A stretch of DNA of 41,838 nt from a virus. How positions within the stretch are numbered: the stretch's first letter is position 1; the number at the start of each line of letters is the position of its first letter. Under the pieces are notes generated by a model, which made no database searches, was not told the DNA's origin, and saw only the letters and a program-made list of their open reading frames with translations. Below, one piece after another: positions 1-41,838 of the stretch. The position numbers were made by a program, and so were the translations under genes. The stretch lies in the IMG/VR virus record IMGVR_UViG_3300025591_000009, positions 1 through 41,838 of that record; one strand, given 5' to 3'.

Positions 1-642
1 GTAAGACAACCTACTACCTCACCACACTCGCCTCATGCACCCGATCATGTGAGACAACATGAGACCCTGAAGGCGATACCATCGCCAACGCCTCAACTCC
101 AAGCTGTAAGACATTGAGCGACAGCGTGGGCTTATCAGCGTCACTACCAATCCCAAAGATTGTCTTACCAGCGTTCGCAAGGTCTACCATCTTCCTACTC
201 GCCTCCAACGCCGAGAGGTTGTCTAACTCTGTAAGACTTGATGCCGCCTTAGTTAACCCGATCGCCATTGAAGAGTGAAACGACTTCTTATTTTCTTCCA
301 TACTCACCGACAAAGCATCGGAAGTGTGACAAATTGTTACAGCGTCACGATGTCCATTCTCTCTTTTCATCTCCTGAATTGCCTTCGCCTTGTTAACTAG
401 TTTCTGAGCGTTGGTGGAGGTTGGCCATTCATCTCGTTTTGCCCATTGCCTGATGGTGGCGGGTTTGATTCCGTGGATGCGAGCTGTCTCTGTAAGACAT
501 CCTGTTGCTAGGTATGTTGCCTTGATTTCGTTTCTGTCGACGGCGAGTGGTGAAGGCATGGTAAGACAACGATTTCAGAATGTGTGACAGATAGTCCCTA
601 CTAGGTTTTCTCTGTAGAGTCAAGATGAAAACATTGTCTTAC
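1..642. repeat. GTAAGAC heptamer array over the HTH gene and window end
   Basis: The heptamer GTAAGAC occurs at 1-7, 106-112, 231-237, 492-498 and 561-567, and inverted at 162-168 and 636-642. One more copy lies at 41811-41817, 28 bp before position 1 if the ends are joined. Most copies continue with A or T. Chance would give about 0.1 copy in this length on both strands. Four copies lie inside the HTH gene, one abuts its start codon, and one is in the divergent promoter region. Inference: recognition sites for the HTH protein, as an operator array or as a packaging (pac/cos) site. In phages such as P22 the pac site lies within the small terminase gene. Confidence 0.6.
14..559 (-). CDS. HTH protein, candidate terminase small subunit
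   Basis: 181 aa. Residues about 9-45 form a helix-turn-helix typical of phage small terminases and related DNA-binding proteins: a 'YLATGCLTETARIHGIKPAT' helix pair followed by IRQWAKRDEWP. The middle and C-terminal parts are helical and of unknown fold. A small terminase would bind the packaging site and hand DNA to the large terminase, which lies 7 kb away on the same strand. Its gene carries four GTAAGAC heptamers, with another directly against the start codon, which fits self-binding or autoregulation. It is convergent with the small unit at 41.36-41.67 kb if the ends join. It could instead be a transcription regulator. Confidence 0.55.
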   Translation of the reverse strand: MPSPLAVDRNEIKATYLATGCLTETARIHGIKPATIRQWAKRDEWPTSTNAQKLVNKAKAIQEMKRENGHRDAVTICHTSDALSVSMEENKKSFHSSMAIGLTKAASSLTELDNLSALEASRKMVDLANAGKTIFGIGSDADKPTLSLNVLQLGVEALAMVSPSGSHVVSHDRVHEASVVR

Positions 643-2395: not shown

Positions 2396-2453
2396 TTCCC
2401 CTTAGCCTTTCCCCTCCTGAATTGCCGACGATTTAAAATCGACCCTCGTGCGT

Positions 2454-2564
2454 GTAAGACGATTGCTTGCAATTACTCACAATTACTTGCAATGCATTTT
2501 GTAGGACAATTACTTGCATTTACTTACTATGTGGTTTGTAAGACCATTACTTACAATCACTTAC
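2454..2564 (+). repeat. Three 27-bp iterons, candidate origin or protein-binding region
   Basis: Three direct copies of a 27-bp unit begin at 2454, 2501 and 2538. Shared pattern: GTARGAC-N-ATTRCTTRCA followed by WTYACTYAC. Start spacings are 47 and 37 bp, differing by 10 bp (one helical turn), so the copies face similar sides of the helix. Each begins with the heptamer that forms the array at the left end (the middle copy has one change). A small palindrome, CGATTT-A-AAATCG, lies just upstream, and the region is AT-rich and non-coding between convergent genes. Iterons beside an AT-rich stretch suggest a replication origin; a second packaging or regulatory site is possible. Confidence 0.6.
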
Positions 2565-2746
2565 CTACGATTTTTTGTTGGCTTTTTCTCAAACCCGCCT
2601 TTTCGTCGGGCATTTTTCGTCGGGCAATTTTCGCTATCGTCGGGCAGTTTTAGCCATTTGATCTTCTGGTAGTTGTCTAGGAATGCCTTGGAGTTGCAGG
2701 ATCGTGGCGTGTCCCCCTTGCCAGCCTGTCCGTATAGGTTGCTCAT
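2561..2746 (-). CDS. Small conserved phage protein (AGKGD-PR motif)
   Basis: 61 aa beginning MSNLYGQAGKGDTPRSC, then FLDNYQKIKW. The 'GKGD-PR------F--NY--I-W' pattern is a common small phage protein of unknown function. The C-terminal half is basic (NARRKGGFEKKPTKNRR) and coded by a DNA segment with three CGTCGGGCA repeats, so the original end may have been altered. It is the last leftward gene before the iteron region and overlaps the preceding gene by ATGA. Confidence 0.7.
   Translation of the reverse strand: MSNLYGQAGKGDTPRSCNSKAFLDNYQKIKWLKLPDDSENCPTKNARRKGGFEKKPTKNRR
2604..2646 (+). repeat. Three short CGTCGGGCA direct repeats
   Basis: CGTCGGGCA followed by T- or A-rich bases occurs at 2604, 2618 and 2638 (spacings 14 and 20, not multiples of three). 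They lie in the 3' end of the small leftward gene. A related sequence, TTGCCGACGATTT, sits on the plus strand near 2422. Meaning unknown; possibly part of the origin-like region. Confidence 0.4.
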
Positions 2747-21033: not shown

Positions 21034-22728
21034 TTAGATGTTAATAAACCAAGGAAGGTTAAGCAAGCGAGAAATTAGCACATCCCCGCCTTCAGAGATA
21101 GACACTTGGAACCCAGTAGATCCATATGCCATAGGGGTTGAGTTTAGATTAACGAGAGAGTTGTCGTTCCAAGCATATTGAATACCTTTAGATGAAGTAT
21201 ATTTAGCTGTTCCATGAATAACTCCTTCTGAATTATATGATCCAGAGTTAAAGGTAACATCGCCATAAACAACAGCTTGATACATTCCCCATGAATCGCC
21301 ACCAAATGTTGCACCATTGCTTATGGTGATTGAGATATAAACAAGCTCCGCATTGTTCGCAGTAAGCGTGTTAATCGTTGGATTTGCCGTTCCTGTGTTG
21401 GCATAAATTGCACGAGAAGGTGCAATAATCACATCGGTGGAGGCATCGGGAATTACTTGAGTTCCAACCGAATTAATCGGGCGAGTTGTATAGGAATCAT
21501 CACTCCACCAATTTAGTGTGTTGTTAAAATCACCATCGTTAGCCCCGCCAATAGAGGGGTTGTCGTTAAAATGCTGTGGGCTAACGGCGGGCCAGTCAAG
21601 GTAGGTTACAGAACCAGAAACATTGCCGCCAATAGGATAGCTACCTAGTCCACCGGAATAATATACTGTGGCGTTGCCATCGATCTGACCAAAGTTGTAT
21701 GATTGCTCATAGAAGAAAGCATTTCCATGAACAGTACCAAGGCTGCTGGTAGATTGATCTCGGAAGGTGGCATTGCCAGTAATGTATCCGTTTTCTCCAA
21801 GCGAGCAAGTATCGTGGAATGAGATTCCGTCCGTTGCAGTTCCATCAAATACGCCGCCTGTGCCTTGGAAATTAACTAGCCCTGTTGAGTTAAGAACAAG
21901 AGGATAATAAAAGCTGGATGAATAAAACTCTGCTGAAGAGCAATAGCAAACTCCATCTCCAGAAGTATTCTCAATAACTTCTCCGTAGATTTTTACTGGT
22001 TTAGTATTAATGGGAAGAGCCGTAGCTTGAATCGTAAATCCAGAATCCAGCCACCAGTTTAAAAGGTTCCCCCAATCTCCATCAGCTTCAGCATTATTGT
22101 AATAAAGTGGCTTATTAAATGGATATGTTGATCCAGCACCGCTATTATAAAGTGCCGTTACATCCGCTGTAGACAATGCTCGGTTCCAAACGCCAACTTC
22201 ATCAATAGAGCCAGATAAAAAAATTCCTGTTAGAACAGCATCTCCACCAAAATATAAATTGCTAACATTACCGAGTTGGTCTCCTATGGCTACAAAAGAA
22301 CCATTTAAATAAAAAGATGGAACTCCACTATAAACTGACAAACAAAAATAATTCCAACTATTTTCAGACAAAGGTGCTGACATTCCTTTATCCTCCAACC
22401 AATTATCAGCAACAATATTTCCATTTCCTGTGCGAATATTTAAACCGGGATATTGTCCAATAATTGTCGAAATCTTATTAGAATCCGTGGTGTTTACCCA
22501 TCCAGCGATTGAATAATTGCCAGTAGATAATGACAATGAAATTGGTGTTGAAAGGTATTGGTCAACACCATCAAAAACAGCATCCCCAGCAATAATTCCA
22601 GTTCCTAGCGTTACGCCATTATTATTAGTAAGAGTATTGCCATTACCAGTCGAGTCAACGAGACTGACTCCACCAGAACCATTATTATTAAGGCTCCAGT
22701 AAGCTAAAATGTTATCTGTGAGTGCCAT
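21034..22728 (-). CDS. Fibre-like protein with LamG domain
   Basis: 564 aa. The N-terminus reads LAYWSLNNNGSGGVSLVDST GNGNTL, then SIAGWVN, ISTIIG and SIDEVGVWNRALSTADV (about residues 1-205), the concanavalin/LamG domain of sugar-binding surface proteins. After it lie two copies of a 'DGDW-N-LNWW-D--FTT-A--LP' type module (about residues 220 and 405) within beta-rich repeats. It probably binds glycans on the host surface. Placed just upstream of the lysis genes, as is usual for tail fibres. Confidence 0.75.
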   Translation of the reverse strand: MALTDNILAYWSLNNNGSGGVSLVDSTGNGNTLTNNNGVTLGTGIIAGDAVFDGVDQYLSTPISLSLSTGNYSIAGWVNTTDSNKISTIIGQYPGLNIRTGNGNIVADNWLEDKGMSAPLSENSWNYFCLSVYSGVPSFYLNGSFVAIGDQLGNVSNLYFGGDAVLTGIFLSGSIDEVGVWNRALSTADVTALYNSGAGSTYPFNKPLYYNNAEADGDWGNLLNWWLDSGFTIQATALPINTKPVKIYGEVIENTSGDGVCYCSSAEFYSSSFYYPLVLNSTGLVNFQGTGGVFDGTATDGISFHDTCSLGENGYITGNATFRDQSTSSLGTVHGNAFFYEQSYNFGQIDGNATVYYSGGLGSYPIGGNVSGSVTYLDWPAVSPQHFNDNPSIGGANDGDFNNTLNWWSDDSYTTRPINSVGTQVIPDASTDVIIAPSRAIYANTGTANPTINTLTANNAELVYISITISNGATFGGDSWGMYQAVVYGDVTFNSGSYNSEGVIHGTAKYTSSKGIQYAWNDNSLVNLNSTPMAYGSTGFQVSISEGGDVLISRLLNLPWFINI

Positions 22729-38105: not shown

Positions 38106-38819
38106 TTAGATTAAGTTTTGAATTGCTCCGGGGGCAAATGCCTTGGTTTGAATATCAACTTGTGCCTGTTCTCCATCCTCGTAATTCATGGTTTCATCAT
38201 TCAGACATTTATAAGCCAAATCCCAATACACATTAGCTCTCTCAAGCTCATTCACATTCTCGTAGTTATAAGCCTGAACTCCATAACGATAGGCATTCCG
38301 ATTAGATGGGATGAGAAGATCGTTGTCTCCAGATAACGGCACATACCCACGCCTGACCAAACAATACATGGTGCGATTTTCAGGCACCCTTCCCACCACC
38401 CTATACCTTTGCGTGTCGGCAGTAGCACCAGATGGCAAAGCACTTGCTGGAGTTTGTCCCATGCGGATCACTTGAGTGTCCCCCACATAGGAGGCTGGCA
38501 TATAACCAATCCCTGCGTCATTCCAAGGATACCAATCACTCATCACATCCACAATATCACCAGTAATATAGGTGCTATCAATAGCCATCACCTTCAACAC
38601 GCTCTCAATTCCAGCAACAGTATCGAAGTAGTAGTTCCCACTCCCATCAACAGAAGTGGTGAAGGAATGAATGAACCGATTCCCCTTCCATTGCCCAGAG
38701 GAAATAAACCTCTCATTGACAAAATTAATGGCACTAGCAACTACTGGGTCAGAAGCCCCTTGGCTCGTAACATACGGAGCCAGAAGAGTTTTAGCCTGTG
38801 CGAAAGAAAGGGAAGCCAT
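38106..38819 (-). CDS. Head-tail adaptor (tail tubular A-like) protein
   Basis: 237 aa. N-terminal helix pattern FAQAKTLLAPYVTSQGASDP then AINFVNERFISSGQWKGNRF, a pattern of podovirus gp11-type adaptors (IN----RF--SG-WKG). Beta-rich core (YYFDTVAGIESVLKVMAIDS), then RVVGRVPENRTMYCLVRRGY and an AYRYGVQAYNYENVNELERA helix pair at the end. It would link portal and tail. Follows the small 87-aa gene. Assignment rests on pattern and position. Confidence 0.65.
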   Translation of the reverse strand: MASLSFAQAKTLLAPYVTSQGASDPVVASAINFVNERFISSGQWKGNRFIHSFTTSVDGSGNYYFDTVAGIESVLKVMAIDSTYITGDIVDVMSDWYPWNDAGIGYMPASYVGDTQVIRMGQTPASALPSGATADTQRYRVVGRVPENRTMYCLVRRGYVPLSGDNDLLIPSNRNAYRYGVQAYNYENVNELERANVYWDLAYKCLNDETMNYEDGEQAQVDIQTKAFAPGAIQNLI

Positions 38820-38861
38820 AATCAGTTACTTAACTAACAATCACCATCAGTTAAGTCAACT

Positions 38862-39125
38862 CTAATCATCGTCATCTTCCATCTCACATTCAATAGTTGG
38901 ATCATCAAACTCCCCATTAGACCAAGCCTCAATCATCCCAGTCACGGCAAACTTATTTCCAAACTGCGTCCCATGATAAGAAGTTCCTCCTTTCTCACAC
39001 TCCCTAGAAAGCATAATCACCCCCACATCAAAATGCTCGGAAGCAATAGCCCTTATCTTATTGATGGCCTCATCAATACGCTCAAACTCTCCGTCATCTT
39101 CTGGGTATGGCTGGGCGGTGAGCAT
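38862..39125 (-). CDS. Small acidic protein, unknown function
   Basis: 87 aa, with an N-terminal region rich in acidic residues (YPEDDGEFERIDEAINKIRA) and a C-terminus ending in MEDDDD. The middle (HFDVGVIMLSRECEKGGTSY) may be a beta hairpin. A GCAGGG before the ATG could be a weak Shine-Dalgarno. It separates the sugar enzymes from the adaptor. No family recognised. Confidence 0.6.
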   Translation of the reverse strand: MLTAQPYPEDDGEFERIDEAINKIRAIASEHFDVGVIMLSRECEKGGTSYHGTQFGNKFAVTGMIEAWSNGEFDDPTIECEMEDDDD

Positions 39126-39149
39126 CCCTGCTTTTTAATACACAAGCCT

Positions 39150-39836
39150 TTAATCCGCAAGGATTCTCTCAATCTCCTGCCTCTTATCGTCGGTTAGACC
39201 ATCCCAACTCCTATACTGCTTGCAAAAGGAAGGCCAATCCTTTGGTTCCATCCAAGCAAACGCATCCCTATGATACCGATATGCCCATTGCCCCATCGTG
39301 TTGAACTCTGAAAATTCATGCCCCAGTTGATTGCAAATCCAATCATCCACGCTCATCCCATGATTTGTAGCCATGAAAGCCCTAAACTCCCGATACAGCC
39401 ACCGAGGGAAAACAATCGGTAAACGCCTCATATACTCGTAACTATCCCTCCACCCCAACGATCTAGCCGATATATCCATCCAAGGCGATACACAGCCATC
39501 CTCACGCAAATAAACAGGCTTCCCATCCAAGAACAGATCCATAGGACTCACATCCTTCGCCAAAATACAATCCGAGTCCATGTGCATCACATACTCGTTC
39601 TTACAGAACTCGTCGGCATGGAGCTTGGTAATCTGCTGATCCATATACCCATCTTTGGCCTTCGGCTCAATAAGATGCACCTCCCCATCAACCTTTGGCA
39701 ATAACCCAATATCAGAGGCAGGAATAGCAATGTGAACCTTCCCAAATCCATGAGCATACTTCTCAACCGATCTCAAAGACAATTCCAACCAGTTAAAGTC
39801 TTGAGAATAGGATCGGTAAAAGATGTCTACATTCAT
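39150..39836 (-). CDS. Glycosyltransferase (DUF6492-like)
   Basis: 228 aa from ATG 39836; a TTG at 39848 also open. N-terminus MNVDIFYRSYSQDFNWLELS LRSVEKYAHGFG, then FCKNEYVMHMDSDCILAKDV with the DxD (Asp-Ser-Asp) metal motif, PVYLREDG, and a C-terminal aromatic region. This matches the DUF6492-type glycosyltransferases. It overlaps the FkbM gene by ATGA, so the two act together, perhaps building and capping a sugar on the virion or host surface. Confidence 0.75.
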   Translation of the reverse strand: MNVDIFYRSYSQDFNWLELSLRSVEKYAHGFGKVHIAIPASDIGLLPKVDGEVHLIEPKAKDGYMDQQITKLHADEFCKNEYVMHMDSDCILAKDVSPMDLFLDGKPVYLREDGCVSPWMDISARSLGWRDSYEYMRRLPIVFPRWLYREFRAFMATNHGMSVDDWICNQLGHEFSEFNTMGQWAYRYHRDAFAWMEPKDWPSFCKQYRSWDGLTDDKRQEIERILAD

Positions 39837-40498
39837 TTCGCAACGCAAAGGATGTCATACTGCATCCCTCCCTCATCTGGATATGGCTCAAATTCATACC
39901 CCATTCCATGCAAAACATCAAATATCTGGGCGGGAACAACACCCTGCCTCTTTAATGCCCCAACATTAATCTCTATCCACATGATCGGCCTGTGAGCCTC
40001 AATCGTCTTCTTTGCTCCCAACAACGCCCTCAATTCCATCCCCTCCACATCCATCTTTATAAAATTCAACCTTTGAAATGGCATGGAATCCAATGCCACC
40101 ACATTAATCGACTGCCCACCATCGCCCACATGAGACGCACCAGCATTCACATCAATAGCCATCTTCAACTCCCCACTCCTGTCACTTAACCCAAGATTCA
40201 ATGCCATAGCCTCTGGGCAGTTGTGAACCAAGCACTCATAAGCCGCTGGATTAGGCTCGAAAGCAATCACCCTTCCAGTCTTACCAACGGCCTTGGTATA
40301 GGCAATAGTATGATCTCCTATAAATGCCCCTGCATCAACCACCACATCACCATCCTTGATATACCTCAAAATAAGGGGAAGTGCATTCTGGTCGTGATCC
40401 AACCTACCCTCCTCTTCCACCCATCTTGAAATATGGGAATCACCATCCAATACAGCTATTCCATTAGAAAGAATTTTCACGGCTTGACATTGCCACAA
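39833..40498 (-). CDS. FkbM-family SAM-dependent methyltransferase
   Basis: 221 aa from TTG 40498 (a GTG at 40480 is the other option). It has the FkbM motifs: VVVDAGAFIGDHTIAY (SAM-binding motif I), GRVIAFEPNPAAYECL, GQSINVVALD, and FIKMDVEGMELRALLG. FkbM methyltransferases O-methylate sugars and small molecules. It sits directly upstream of, and coupled to, the glycosyltransferase, so the methylated product is likely a sugar. Such genes in phage genomes may modify virion or host glycans. Confidence 0.85.
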   Translation of the reverse strand: MWQCQAVKILSNGIAVLDGDSHISRWVEEEGRLDHDQNALPLILRYIKDGDVVVDAGAFIGDHTIAYTKAVGKTGRVIAFEPNPAAYECLVHNCPEAMALNLGLSDRSGELKMAIDVNAGASHVGDGGQSINVVALDSMPFQRLNFIKMDVEGMELRALLGAKKTIEAHRPIMWIEINVGALKRQGVVPAQIFDVLHGMGYEFEPYPDEGGMQYDILCVAK

Positions 40499-40507
40499 CT
40501 AACTCCA

Positions 40508-40615
40508 TCATGGCAAGTAATCAATAACGGATTCTTCTAGCCCTCCCATGATTTCTATTTGATTTTCTTTTAGAAAAGTAAACCTCATCAACTCTTGTTT
40601 GAGGGTAAGTCTCAT
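40508..40615 (-). CDS. 35-aa small peptide
   Basis: MRLTLKQELMRFTFLKENQI then EIMGGLEESVIDYLP. The ATG overlaps the TGA of the 76-aa gene (ATGA), and it ends nine bases before the FkbM start. Amphipathic and helical. It is probably real because of its coupling; function unknown. Confidence 0.5.
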   Translation of the reverse strand: MRLTLKQELMRFTFLKENQIEIMGGLEESVIDYLP

Positions 40616-40842
40616 TTTAGCATCCCCCTTTTAACCACACCATCAACCCTCCTCCTTTGCCTTACTAATCCTTTATGGCCTTTTGCCATCCTCCAATAAG
40701 AACACCAATCAACCCACCAAGGGTCATCCCCCCTATACCCCCAGCATACCAAAGCATTGTTGTCAGGATGGATGTCTCCATTCTTAAATCTACGCTTGCC
40801 CTCCAAGGCTCCACGATCTAAATTATCACCAGCTTCGCTCAT
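40612..40842 (-). CDS. Small Trp-rich protein, unknown function
   Basis: 76 aa, MSEAGDNLDRGALEGKRRFK then NGDIHPDNNALVCWGYRGDD PWWVDW, basic at the end. The aromatic-rich middle (five Trp) with RRRVDGVVKRG tail is unusual. Its leader ends in CAACCCATAACAACCT, as seen before other genes. Its stop overlaps the 35-aa ORF start. No family recognised. Confidence 0.6.
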   Translation of the reverse strand: MSEAGDNLDRGALEGKRRFKNGDIHPDNNALVCWGYRGDDPWWVDWCSYWRMAKGHKGLVRQRRRVDGVVKRGMLK

Positions 40843-40866
40843 AGGTTGTTATGGGTTGAGGTTAGG

Positions 40867-40897
40867 GGCGGGAGAGAACACCACATTCTCTCTCGCC
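40867..40897. terminator. Hairpin before the Trp-rich gene
   Basis: GGCGGGAGAGA (40867-40877) pairs with TCTCTCTCGCC (40887-40897) over 11 positions including one G-U, with a 9-nt loop, followed on the plus strand by TTGTTATTT. In the leftward direction it lies between the 53-aa ORF (stop at 40905) and the next start, followed by CCTAACCTC. It could be a terminator or attenuator after the 53-aa ORF. Confidence 0.5.
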
Positions 40898-40904
40898 TTG
40901 TTAT

Positions 40905-41066
40905 TTATACCACTTGACTTCCATTGTAGCAAGTGCTATCAGTAATCCCTTCCCCAATGGGAAGTCTGTTCAACGACAGGATGTCTCTGACTCCCCTGCA
41001 AATCGTTATACCTCGTGGATGGTCGCCCAGCCATGCCTTAATCTTTGTCATACGCAATGCTTGCAT
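40905..41066 (-). CDS. 53-aa ORF under a structured leader
   Basis: MQALRMTKIKAWLGDHPRGI then TICRGVRDILSLNRLPIGEG. A GGAGG (41075-41071) lies four bases before the ATG at 41066; an ATG at 41051 (MTKIKAW) is also possible. Basic, with an AWLGDHPRGI..CRGVRDIL core, and a polar end. It lies first in the leftward late unit. The start site is inside a hairpin of the folded leader. No family recognised; it may be a small regulator. Confidence 0.55.
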   Translation of the reverse strand: MQALRMTKIKAWLGDHPRGITICRGVRDILSLNRLPIGEGITDSTCYNGSQVV

Positions 41067-41205
41067 ACTACCTCCATATAGAGGCAAGTGCAACGACCTG
41101 AAGGAAATAGCGAGGGGTCGAAGTTGCGAATGCTCTCTTGGAACCGCTTTGATTTAAGACACCAAAGCCCCAAGGGGCATGCTTTGTCTTCCCTCGGAGA
41201 GCGTT
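41060..41205 (-). ncRNA. Folded leader RNA, candidate cis-regulatory element
   Basis: Leftward transcript. P1: plus 41129-41137 (AATGCTCTC) with 41197-41205 (GAGAGCGTT), 9 pairs incl. one G-U; inside it AGAC (41157-41160) with GTCT (41186-41189) and AAAGC (41164-41168) with GCTTT (41181-41185). P2: GCAACGACC (41090-41098) with GGTCG-AA-GTTGC (41116-41127). P3: CTTGC (41060-41064) with GCAAG (41084-41088), and CCTC (41071-41074) with GAGG (41081-41084). P3 covers the GGAGG and touches the ATG of the 53-aa ORF. Such a layout (folded domain plus start-site hairpin) is what riboswitches or thermosensors show; the ligand, if any, is unknown. Confidence 0.5.
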
Positions 41206-41216
41206 ATTCATTACCC

Positions 41217-41269
41217 TTCTTATTAAAGATAATCACCATTTCCTTTAATAACACATTTTCTTATTAAAG
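41217..41269. promoter_or_regulatory. Three TTATTAAAG boxes in the divergent control region
   Basis: TTATTAAAG occurs at 41220-41228 and 41261-41269 (both within TTCTTATTAAAG), and inverted (CTTTAATAA) at 41243-41251. Spacing between centres is 23 and 18 bp. They lie just upstream of the folded leader (leftward) and about 90 bases from the rightward 75-aa gene. Probably operators or an AT-rich promoter element shared by both directions. Confidence 0.5.
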
Positions 41270-41281
41270 CATTCCTTCATC

Positions 41282-41341
41282 ATGTCGATAAAACACAAAT
41301 TTCTATACATATCCAACACAACCTGTCTAAATCATCGACAT
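41282..41341. promoter_or_regulatory. Widely spaced 8-bp inverted repeat before the rightward unit
   Basis: ATGTCGAT (41282-41289) and ATCGACAT (41334-41341) are perfect inverted copies, centres 52 bp apart (about five helical turns). They frame the likely promoter of the 75-aa gene (a TATACATAT lies at 41304-41312). This is the arrangement of operators that work by DNA looping. Inference. Confidence 0.4.
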
Positions 41342-41355
41342 ATCTTTACACAACC

Positions 41356-41583
41356 ATGCTCCACCAAAACGACTCCCTCTCATTCAACTCATTCAAAGAC
41401 GCTACCAAACTAGCGGCATCAGGCGAAGAATACTCTCATCTCATCTCCCTAATGAACCCAGACCACGCCCTTCGCCTCAAACTCTTCGTCCAAGAACTCC
41501 CTTGGAGCGTAGCAAACAAGACGATCTATGGAAAAGCACATTGGAAAGAACAATCCGAAGCTCGTCAAAAGAAACGCAAATGA
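41356..41583 (+). CDS. Small protein, unknown function
   Basis: 75 aa, NDSLSFNSFKDATKLAASGE EYSHLISLMNPDHALRLKLF, then Lys/Arg-rich C-terminus (SEARQKKRK). Helical and basic. Leader ends TTTACACAACC, ACA-rich and without Shine-Dalgarno. It overlaps the following membrane peptide by ATGA. It is transcribed rightward, opposite to almost all late genes, so it may belong with the early rightward cluster across the join. No family recognised. Confidence 0.6.
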   Translation: MLHQNDSLSFNSFKDATKLAASGEEYSHLISLMNPDHALRLKLFVQELPWSVANKTIYGKAHWKEQSEARQKKRK

Positions 41584-41666: not shown

Positions 41667-41838
41667 CTCTCAAAAGCTCGCTGTCGCATCTTTAGACGCT
41701 CACAAACAAAGCGAGTGTCACTTCTTTAGAAGCAGAACAAAGTTCTGTCACTCTGGGATTTTGTGAAAAAATTGTGGAGGGGTTTTCGCGTGAGAGCGTC
41801 CGCAAACTTTGTAAGACAAGGGGTGGTGTGCGTCCTAC
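41667..41838. repeat. Repeat-rich non-coding right end
   Basis: 172 bases without a gene. TGTC(G/A)C begins imperfect direct repeats at 41682, 41716 and 41746 (spacings 34 and 30). The repeats share TGTC..(A/T)TCTTTAGA(C/A)GC and ACAAAG. Inverted repeats: CTCGCT (41677-41682) / AGCGAG (41710-41715); CTTCT-TT-AGAAG (41721-41732); CAGAAC-AAA-GTTCTG (41733-41747). One GTAAGAC copy is at 41811. If the ends join, this is convergent with the HTH gene, so the hairpins may act as terminators in both directions, or the region may be part of a packaging site. Confidence 0.5.

Follow-up and report, generated by a model that had tools for sequence, protein, structure and literature searches.

What does a cluster of direct repeats in the non-coding DNA between two converging operons do for the phage that carries it? 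The question is raised by a 41,838-bp viral contig, the whole of which is here called the window, in which three 27-bp units start at 2454, 2501 and 2538 and open with the heptamers GTAAGAC, GTAGGAC and GTAAGAC, respectively. A second record, L005, joins the right end of the window to its left end via 93 further bases, indicating that the map is circular or circularly permuted. The original prediction regarded these repeats (array 2) as an iteron origin or as a second binding site for the protein of another repeat cluster at the left end (array 1). Array 2 proved to be real, conserved and more structured than that prediction had seen, and a probable function can be proposed for it.

The repeat array between converging operons

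The three units are present as claimed. Their 27-mers share 22/27 positions in each pairwise comparison (counted by eye), and three GTARGAC words inside 111 bp were obtained in 0/400 window-length random sequences (first-order Markov resamples), the maximum being two; over the whole window, 14 GTARGAC were observed against 5.3 ± 2.2 expected. Self-identity at array 2 was 0.45 at lag 10 and 0.64 at lag 37, compared with window-wide means of 0.25 (sd 0.05), and the window maxima of both measures lie at 2461–2466. Independently, TRF detected a period of 10 at 2462–2493 and a period of 37 at 2470–2564.

On the plus strand, the first heptamer, GTAAGAC (2454..2460), is followed by three ten-mers of the form WATTRCNYRC (gattgcttgc, aattactcac and aattacttgc; 2461..2490) and by a spacer ten-mer of the family WWTGTDKTTT (aatgcatttt; 2491..2500). 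The second, GTAGGAC (2501..2507), is followed by two ten-mers (aattacttgc and atttacttac; 2508..2527) and the spacer tatgtggttt (2528..2537), and the third, GTAAGAC (2538..2544), by two ten-mers (cattacttac and aatcacttac; 2545..2564). The predicted 27-bp unit is real in the window, where it is composed of 7 + 10 + 10 bp, but the true unit across relatives is 7 + 10n. Similarly, the proposed register with the helix applies to the ten-mers and to the increments by which the spacings differ, but not from heptamer to heptamer (27/37/47 bp, about n + 1/2 turns).

Left of array 2, the plus-strand genes for GP88 (PF17338; 1486–2184) and a 38-aa ORF (2181–2297) are closed by a hairpin terminator, identified by eye at about 2311–2341. 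To the right lies a minus-strand ORF (2561–2746), and the minus-strand operon that ends at array 2 encodes a probable, very diverged TerL (phrog_38, E 2e-4), an exonuclease, DnaB, SSB and small ORFs; the DnaB, SSB, exonuclease and Erf-like genes represent phage-encoded replication and recombination functions. The predicted location in AT-rich DNA between convergent genes was thereby confirmed, with plus- and minus-strand genes converging on a site whose GC content, 0.33, is in the lowest 2% of the window's 111-bp windows. Elsewhere, the window encodes a large protein with a lectin-like Laminin_G_3 domain (21034–22728; Pfam E 7e-13) and a methyltransferase-like protein (39833–40498; phrog_8156, E 9e-28), and positions 38501–41500 stand apart from the remaining sequence by a strong GC skew, −0.32 to −0.35 in each 1-kb window.

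A second repeat family, missing from the original prediction, accompanies the array. CGTCGGGC occurs three times, at 2604, 2618 and 2638 (array B; 2604..2645, plus strand), overlapping the 3′ part of the ORF at 2561–2746, and CGTCGGGY was observed four times in the window against 0.6 expected. As the word GCCCGACG is translated in three different reading frames of this ORF (LPDD, CPT and ARR), it is the DNA and not the protein that is repeated. In 14/14 of the related contigs described below, 3–6 copies of CGTCGGGY, mostly 13–20 bp apart, lie 45–77 bp to the right of the last heptamer, so that the element is bipartite and includes the CGTCGGGC repeats. To the left of the array, a degenerate inverted copy of the B repeat (CCGACGA; 2425..2432, minus strand) was read in the sequence and in relatives, where the equivalent position holds CCCGACGATT and then TTTTATGCTTT.

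Two candidate structures were rejected. The predicted palindrome CGATTTAAAATCG exists in the window but is not kept in relatives (L090 has CGATTTAAAAGGC), and was discarded as a chance occurrence, while an RNA or DNA hairpin through GTARG..CTTRC is possible in the window, but relatives, judged by eye, do not preserve the pairing (GTAAGACGATTGCTAAC).

A spacing grammar kept in related viral contigs

Relatives were found neither among phage records (by distant blastn) nor among prokaryote genomes, and were gathered from viral contigs by searches with GP88, the HTH protein encoded at the left end, the helicase and TerL. The search of relatives for the unit, which had been suggested as a check, revealed direct repeats in non-coding DNA that are conserved with a strict grammar: the modular form [GTNNNAC](WATTRCNYRC)n(WWTGTDKTTT), represented by three units in the window, is common to 14 contigs, in each of which the slot was parsed, and at least 14 related viral contigs keep the spacing rule, this number being a lower bound. 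L086 and L112 do carry array 2 and were found via their CGTCGGGY repeats; one more array (L132) came from scanning viral contigs for the DNA pattern, where most hits were single chance matches.

The heptamer of array 2 is usually GTAAGAC, in an orientation that differs among relatives, and it also occurs as GTCTTAC (the same word reversed), GTCATAC and close variants. GTCATAC stands at the left edge of array 2 even where array 1 is built on GTAAGAC, which makes it unsuitable for judging whether the two arrays change in step. Heptamer spacings were 27/37/47/57 bp (7 mod 10) in 17/21 cases from 11 contigs; array 1 has no such spacing rule, with 8/68 only. CNYRC cores are positioned, with few exceptions, at −5, +5, +15, +25 and +35 from the heptamer end, and, across the scanned records, clusters of the ten-mers were essentially confined to array 2. 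As 27, 37 and 47 bp correspond to about 2.6, 3.5 and 4.5 turns, the heptamers alternate between roughly opposite faces of the helix. The reversed heptamer GTCTTAC gives a core in the same phase (−5), so the ten-mers might represent the same half-site in a weaker form.

This regular lattice recalls two further kinds of sites. Plasmid centromeres typically consist of tandem short repeats at one-turn spacing, and a centromere-like partition site of short, helically phased repeats would match array 2 in this respect; as neither a ParA/ParB-like gene nor an integrase was found among the proteins scanned (with many small ORFs outside the scan), we consider a partition site scarcely probable. In addition, the ten-mers, whose one-turn spacing is also about that of low-affinity DnaA sites, could be degenerate DnaA boxes (TTRCNYRCA resembles TTATNCACA) through which the host initiator would open the site; ten-mer copies like TTACGCACA and TTACACACA are one base off a DnaA box. 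However, the matrix of the ten-mers has C at position 4 almost throughout, as against the T of DnaA boxes, and TTWTNCACA was found in 1/14 slots and not at the array of the window, leaving recognition by DnaA very unlikely.

The two arrays largely occur together. Among contigs showing both regions, array 2 is present in nearly all of those in which the HTH gene has a GTAAGAC array, and contigs without array 1 are also without array 2, although the sequences are related and the counts hence not independent. L094 and L263 have array 1 without array 2, and their slot holds a different, very AT-rich stretch, whereas contigs lacking both arrays often have other tandem repeats there. A TRF score of at least 60 was reached in 45% of 22 slots and in 6% of control windows, a difference partly due to array B and array 2 themselves. 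Such contents, other tandem repeats or an AT-rich stretch, are what a functional slot for exchangeable iterons would be expected to hold. Tandem arrays seen in the same slot of relatives without array 2 include CGGGAATGCTAA (×4.6) in L280 (16830–16943) and ATCGCCCTCA (×5) in L313 (9128–9177). In L004, the contig end (5824–5872) repeats the contig's own terminator region as a fold-back, which is an artefact of assembly.

The small-terminase-like gene and its flank

The HTH protein, of 181 aa, is encoded on the minus strand at 14..559 and resembles small terminases (TerS): the PHROG TerS families 2606/509/1889 match 18–19/20 homologues, with a best E of about 2e-6 and over the HTH part only. Its predicted layout comprises an HTH at 9–43, a helix and a helical hairpin at 79–135; the AlphaFold models have pLDDT 61–64, and fold searches returned no decisive match for the C-terminal part. 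The gene harbours sites from the left part of array 1 (1..642), in which GTAAGAC occurs at 1+, 106+, 162−, 231+, 492+, 561+ and 636−; the right part (41745..41838), with GTAAGAC at 41811+ and GTAGGAC at 41832−, includes part of a conserved non-coding block, and the array runs on into the 93 bp absent between the window's end and start. The original prediction had linked the heptamers of array 2 to this left-end array, and the link was upheld in relatives: wherever the HTH protein is at least 62% identical and the array region is covered, GTAAGAC is the top enriched 7-mer in and beside the gene, with 6–14 copies against about 0.1 expected. In most homologues more distant than 62% it is not the top 7-mer, L263 (44% identical, with a diverged HTH) being an exception. 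Within the gene, the codons for Gly-Lys-Thr read GGT-AAG-AC in 14/14 users, although GGT makes up 25% of Gly codons, showing that the DNA word itself is under selection.

Several further features of this region were observed. The TerS-like proteins of L098 (3087–3569) and L263 (19374–19856) have a strongly diverged N-terminal HTH and a conserved C-terminal half, and GTAAGAC sites are kept in both. In alignment A2, Tyr43 follows the recognition-helix Arg in 7/7 aligned homologues without GTAAGAC arrays and in none with them; this split mostly mirrors relatedness and was set aside as proving nothing. TGTNACA words (TGTGACA/TGTCACA/TGTTACA) are repeated in the promoter region of the HTH gene, at 580–590 in the window and upstream in relatives with and without GTAAGAC, and are possibly another operator. 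A tRNA-Gln gene adjoins array 1 in L008 (378–449) and L096 (4600–4671); none was found in L005, which spans that region of the window's genome.

Behind the TerS-like gene, relatives with and without GTAAGAC keep the non-coding block AAGGAATC..TGACGGGCACC..CACAATTTTT..AAAATCCCAG, which spans 41745–41838 of the window plus the 93-bp gap (L005 3423–3515), so that the window's right end falls inside it. The block is a candidate cos or pac site, and a better candidate than array 2, which is separated by about 1.9 kb from the HTH gene's start and by about 2.5 kb from the block; array 1 alone overlaps the HTH gene. The block bears directly on the possibility that array 2 is a second small-terminase site, with the HTH protein being TerS and both arrays its binding sites. 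The ring of TerS subunits would then wrap array 2, with one contact per turn, to start or regulate packaging. In TerS rings the HTH motifs are arranged in a circle, and direct repeats are found in pac sites (PMC4737164); the case is furthered by the match of TerS PHROGs to 19/20 homologues, by the TerS-like order of HTH, helix and helical hairpin in the predicted layout, and by the GTAAGAC common to both arrays. Nevertheless, the structure model is weak (pLDDT 64) and the fold matches are not decisive, the better packaging candidate AAGGAATC..TGACGGGCACC..CACAATTTTT stands beside the HTH gene whether or not GTAAGAC is there, and array 2 is about 2.5 kb off, missing in L094 and L263, and paired with an unrelated repeat. 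We therefore regard this role as rather unlikely.

The sites at 561+ and 636− flank the start of the HTH gene, which suggests autoregulation, and the protein weakly matches the structure of the cluster A2 immunity repressor (7r6r, Z 5.5, 2.5 Å over 44 residues). The HTH protein could accordingly be a repressor, with array 2 acting as an operator or transcriptional road-block that stops read-through between the converging operons, like the stoperators of mycobacteriophages, which are asymmetric sites bound by a monomer (PMC9283540). This is clearly unlikely. The sites are mostly in two clusters and not across many intergenic gaps, whole-record scans having yielded clusters and scattered copies instead of a stoperator-like layout of many single intergenic sites; the orientation of the array 2 heptamer varies between relatives; an intrinsic terminator already ends the plus-strand operon; and the lattice of ten-mers is left without explanation.

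A proposed origin and its counterparts in known systems

Comparison of the related contigs establishes, at the sequence level, the modular grammar, its conservation, the co-occurrence of both repeat types and DNA-level selection on the heptamer. All features of this grammar are consistent with a protein that starts from a strong anchor and contacts the DNA at each turn, and we propose that positions 2425–2645 form a bipartite assembly site for a multi-subunit nucleoprotein complex, most likely a phage replication origin, a reading to which we give about an even chance. The strong heptamer (GTNNNAC, usually GTAAGAC) would anchor a phage DNA-binding protein, of which several copies assemble, and the weaker CNYRC copies, one per helical turn, would extend the complex; as the distance to the next heptamer changes in whole 10-bp steps, the length of the complex would change by whole helical turns. 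The neighbouring CGTCGGGY repeats would be bound by a second factor or by the same one. The heptamer-binding protein is probably the HTH protein of 14–559, whose own gene and 3′ flank hold the second GTAAGAC cluster, and array 2 may share its binding protein with the packaging region. The origin would be sited where two operons meet, past the terminator of one and at the end of the other, which encodes SSB and the DnaB helicase. We infer the identity of the binding protein, the binding of several subunits and the origin function alike.

The origin is favoured over packaging because the separate conserved block behind the HTH gene is the better cos/pac candidate, and because the slot, situated where the replication operon ends, contains repeats that are exchangeable. 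Compositional evidence was mixed. GC skew lent the origin no support, its extremes in five records not falling consistently at the site; the AT-skew maximum lies within about 0.2–0.8 kb of it in 3/5 records, where gene orientation also switches. The GC minima of the slot are 0.32–0.38 in five records (percentile 0.9–14.6), which is not the genome minimum in every relative. Further points count against the proposed origin and its binding by the HTH protein: DnaA boxes are missing from every slot but one, array 2 is absent from L094 and L263, and the HTH is diverged in L098 and L263, yet GTAAGAC is kept. GTAAGAC is found both in the HTH gene and at array 2, but the gene looks like that of a TerS, and its product resembles small terminases more than any initiator, so that GTAAGAC may belong to packaging only. 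That replication and packaging are linked by one TerS-type HTH protein, which would bind GTAAGAC in the packaging region as well as in a helically quantised origin array far from it, is a tentative idea that we think unlikely.

The motif was not recognised in published papers, although a word search of the open literature is weak evidence. The grammar (a heptamer with n ten-mers, 7 + 10n spacing and a second repeat family) provides a precise picture of a complex sized in whole helical turns, and array 2 points to a probable origin for a whole family of phages that are uncultivated. As the heptamer is also present in the probable packaging region, array 2 offers a concrete case in which to ask whether one DNA-binding protein can link replication and packaging.

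In logic, though not in sequence, the nearest precedent is SPP1 gp38, whose direct-repeat binding sites lie partly within the gp38 gene (oriL) and partly at the distant oriR (PMC6316719). Both systems have shared repeats inside a gene and at a distant site, AT-rich DNA and a phage DnaB helicase; here, however, the protein is TerS-like, a helicase loader was not recognised, the repeat sequence and the 7 + 10n grammar differ, and any function here is a predicted one. Like iteron origins (lambda O/ori and iteron plasmids), array 2 has several direct repeats of about 20–30 bp beside AT-rich DNA, but its unit is a composite of heptamer and ten-mers, its spacing changes in 10-bp steps, its heptamers occur in either orientation, a second repeat family is adjacent, and it does not overlap an initiator gene. 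The pac sites of SPP1/SF6 and lambda cosB (PMC4737164) are matched by array 1, with repeats inside and next to a TerS-like gene and an HTH protein, whereas array 2, with a grammar and partner repeat of its own, is about 2.5 kb away from the block that is the packaging candidate. Finally, the mycobacteriophage cluster A stoperators (PMC9283540) are likewise asymmetric short sites for one phage HTH protein in several places, but are single and scattered through intergenic gaps, whereas array 2 is clustered, phased and bipartite.
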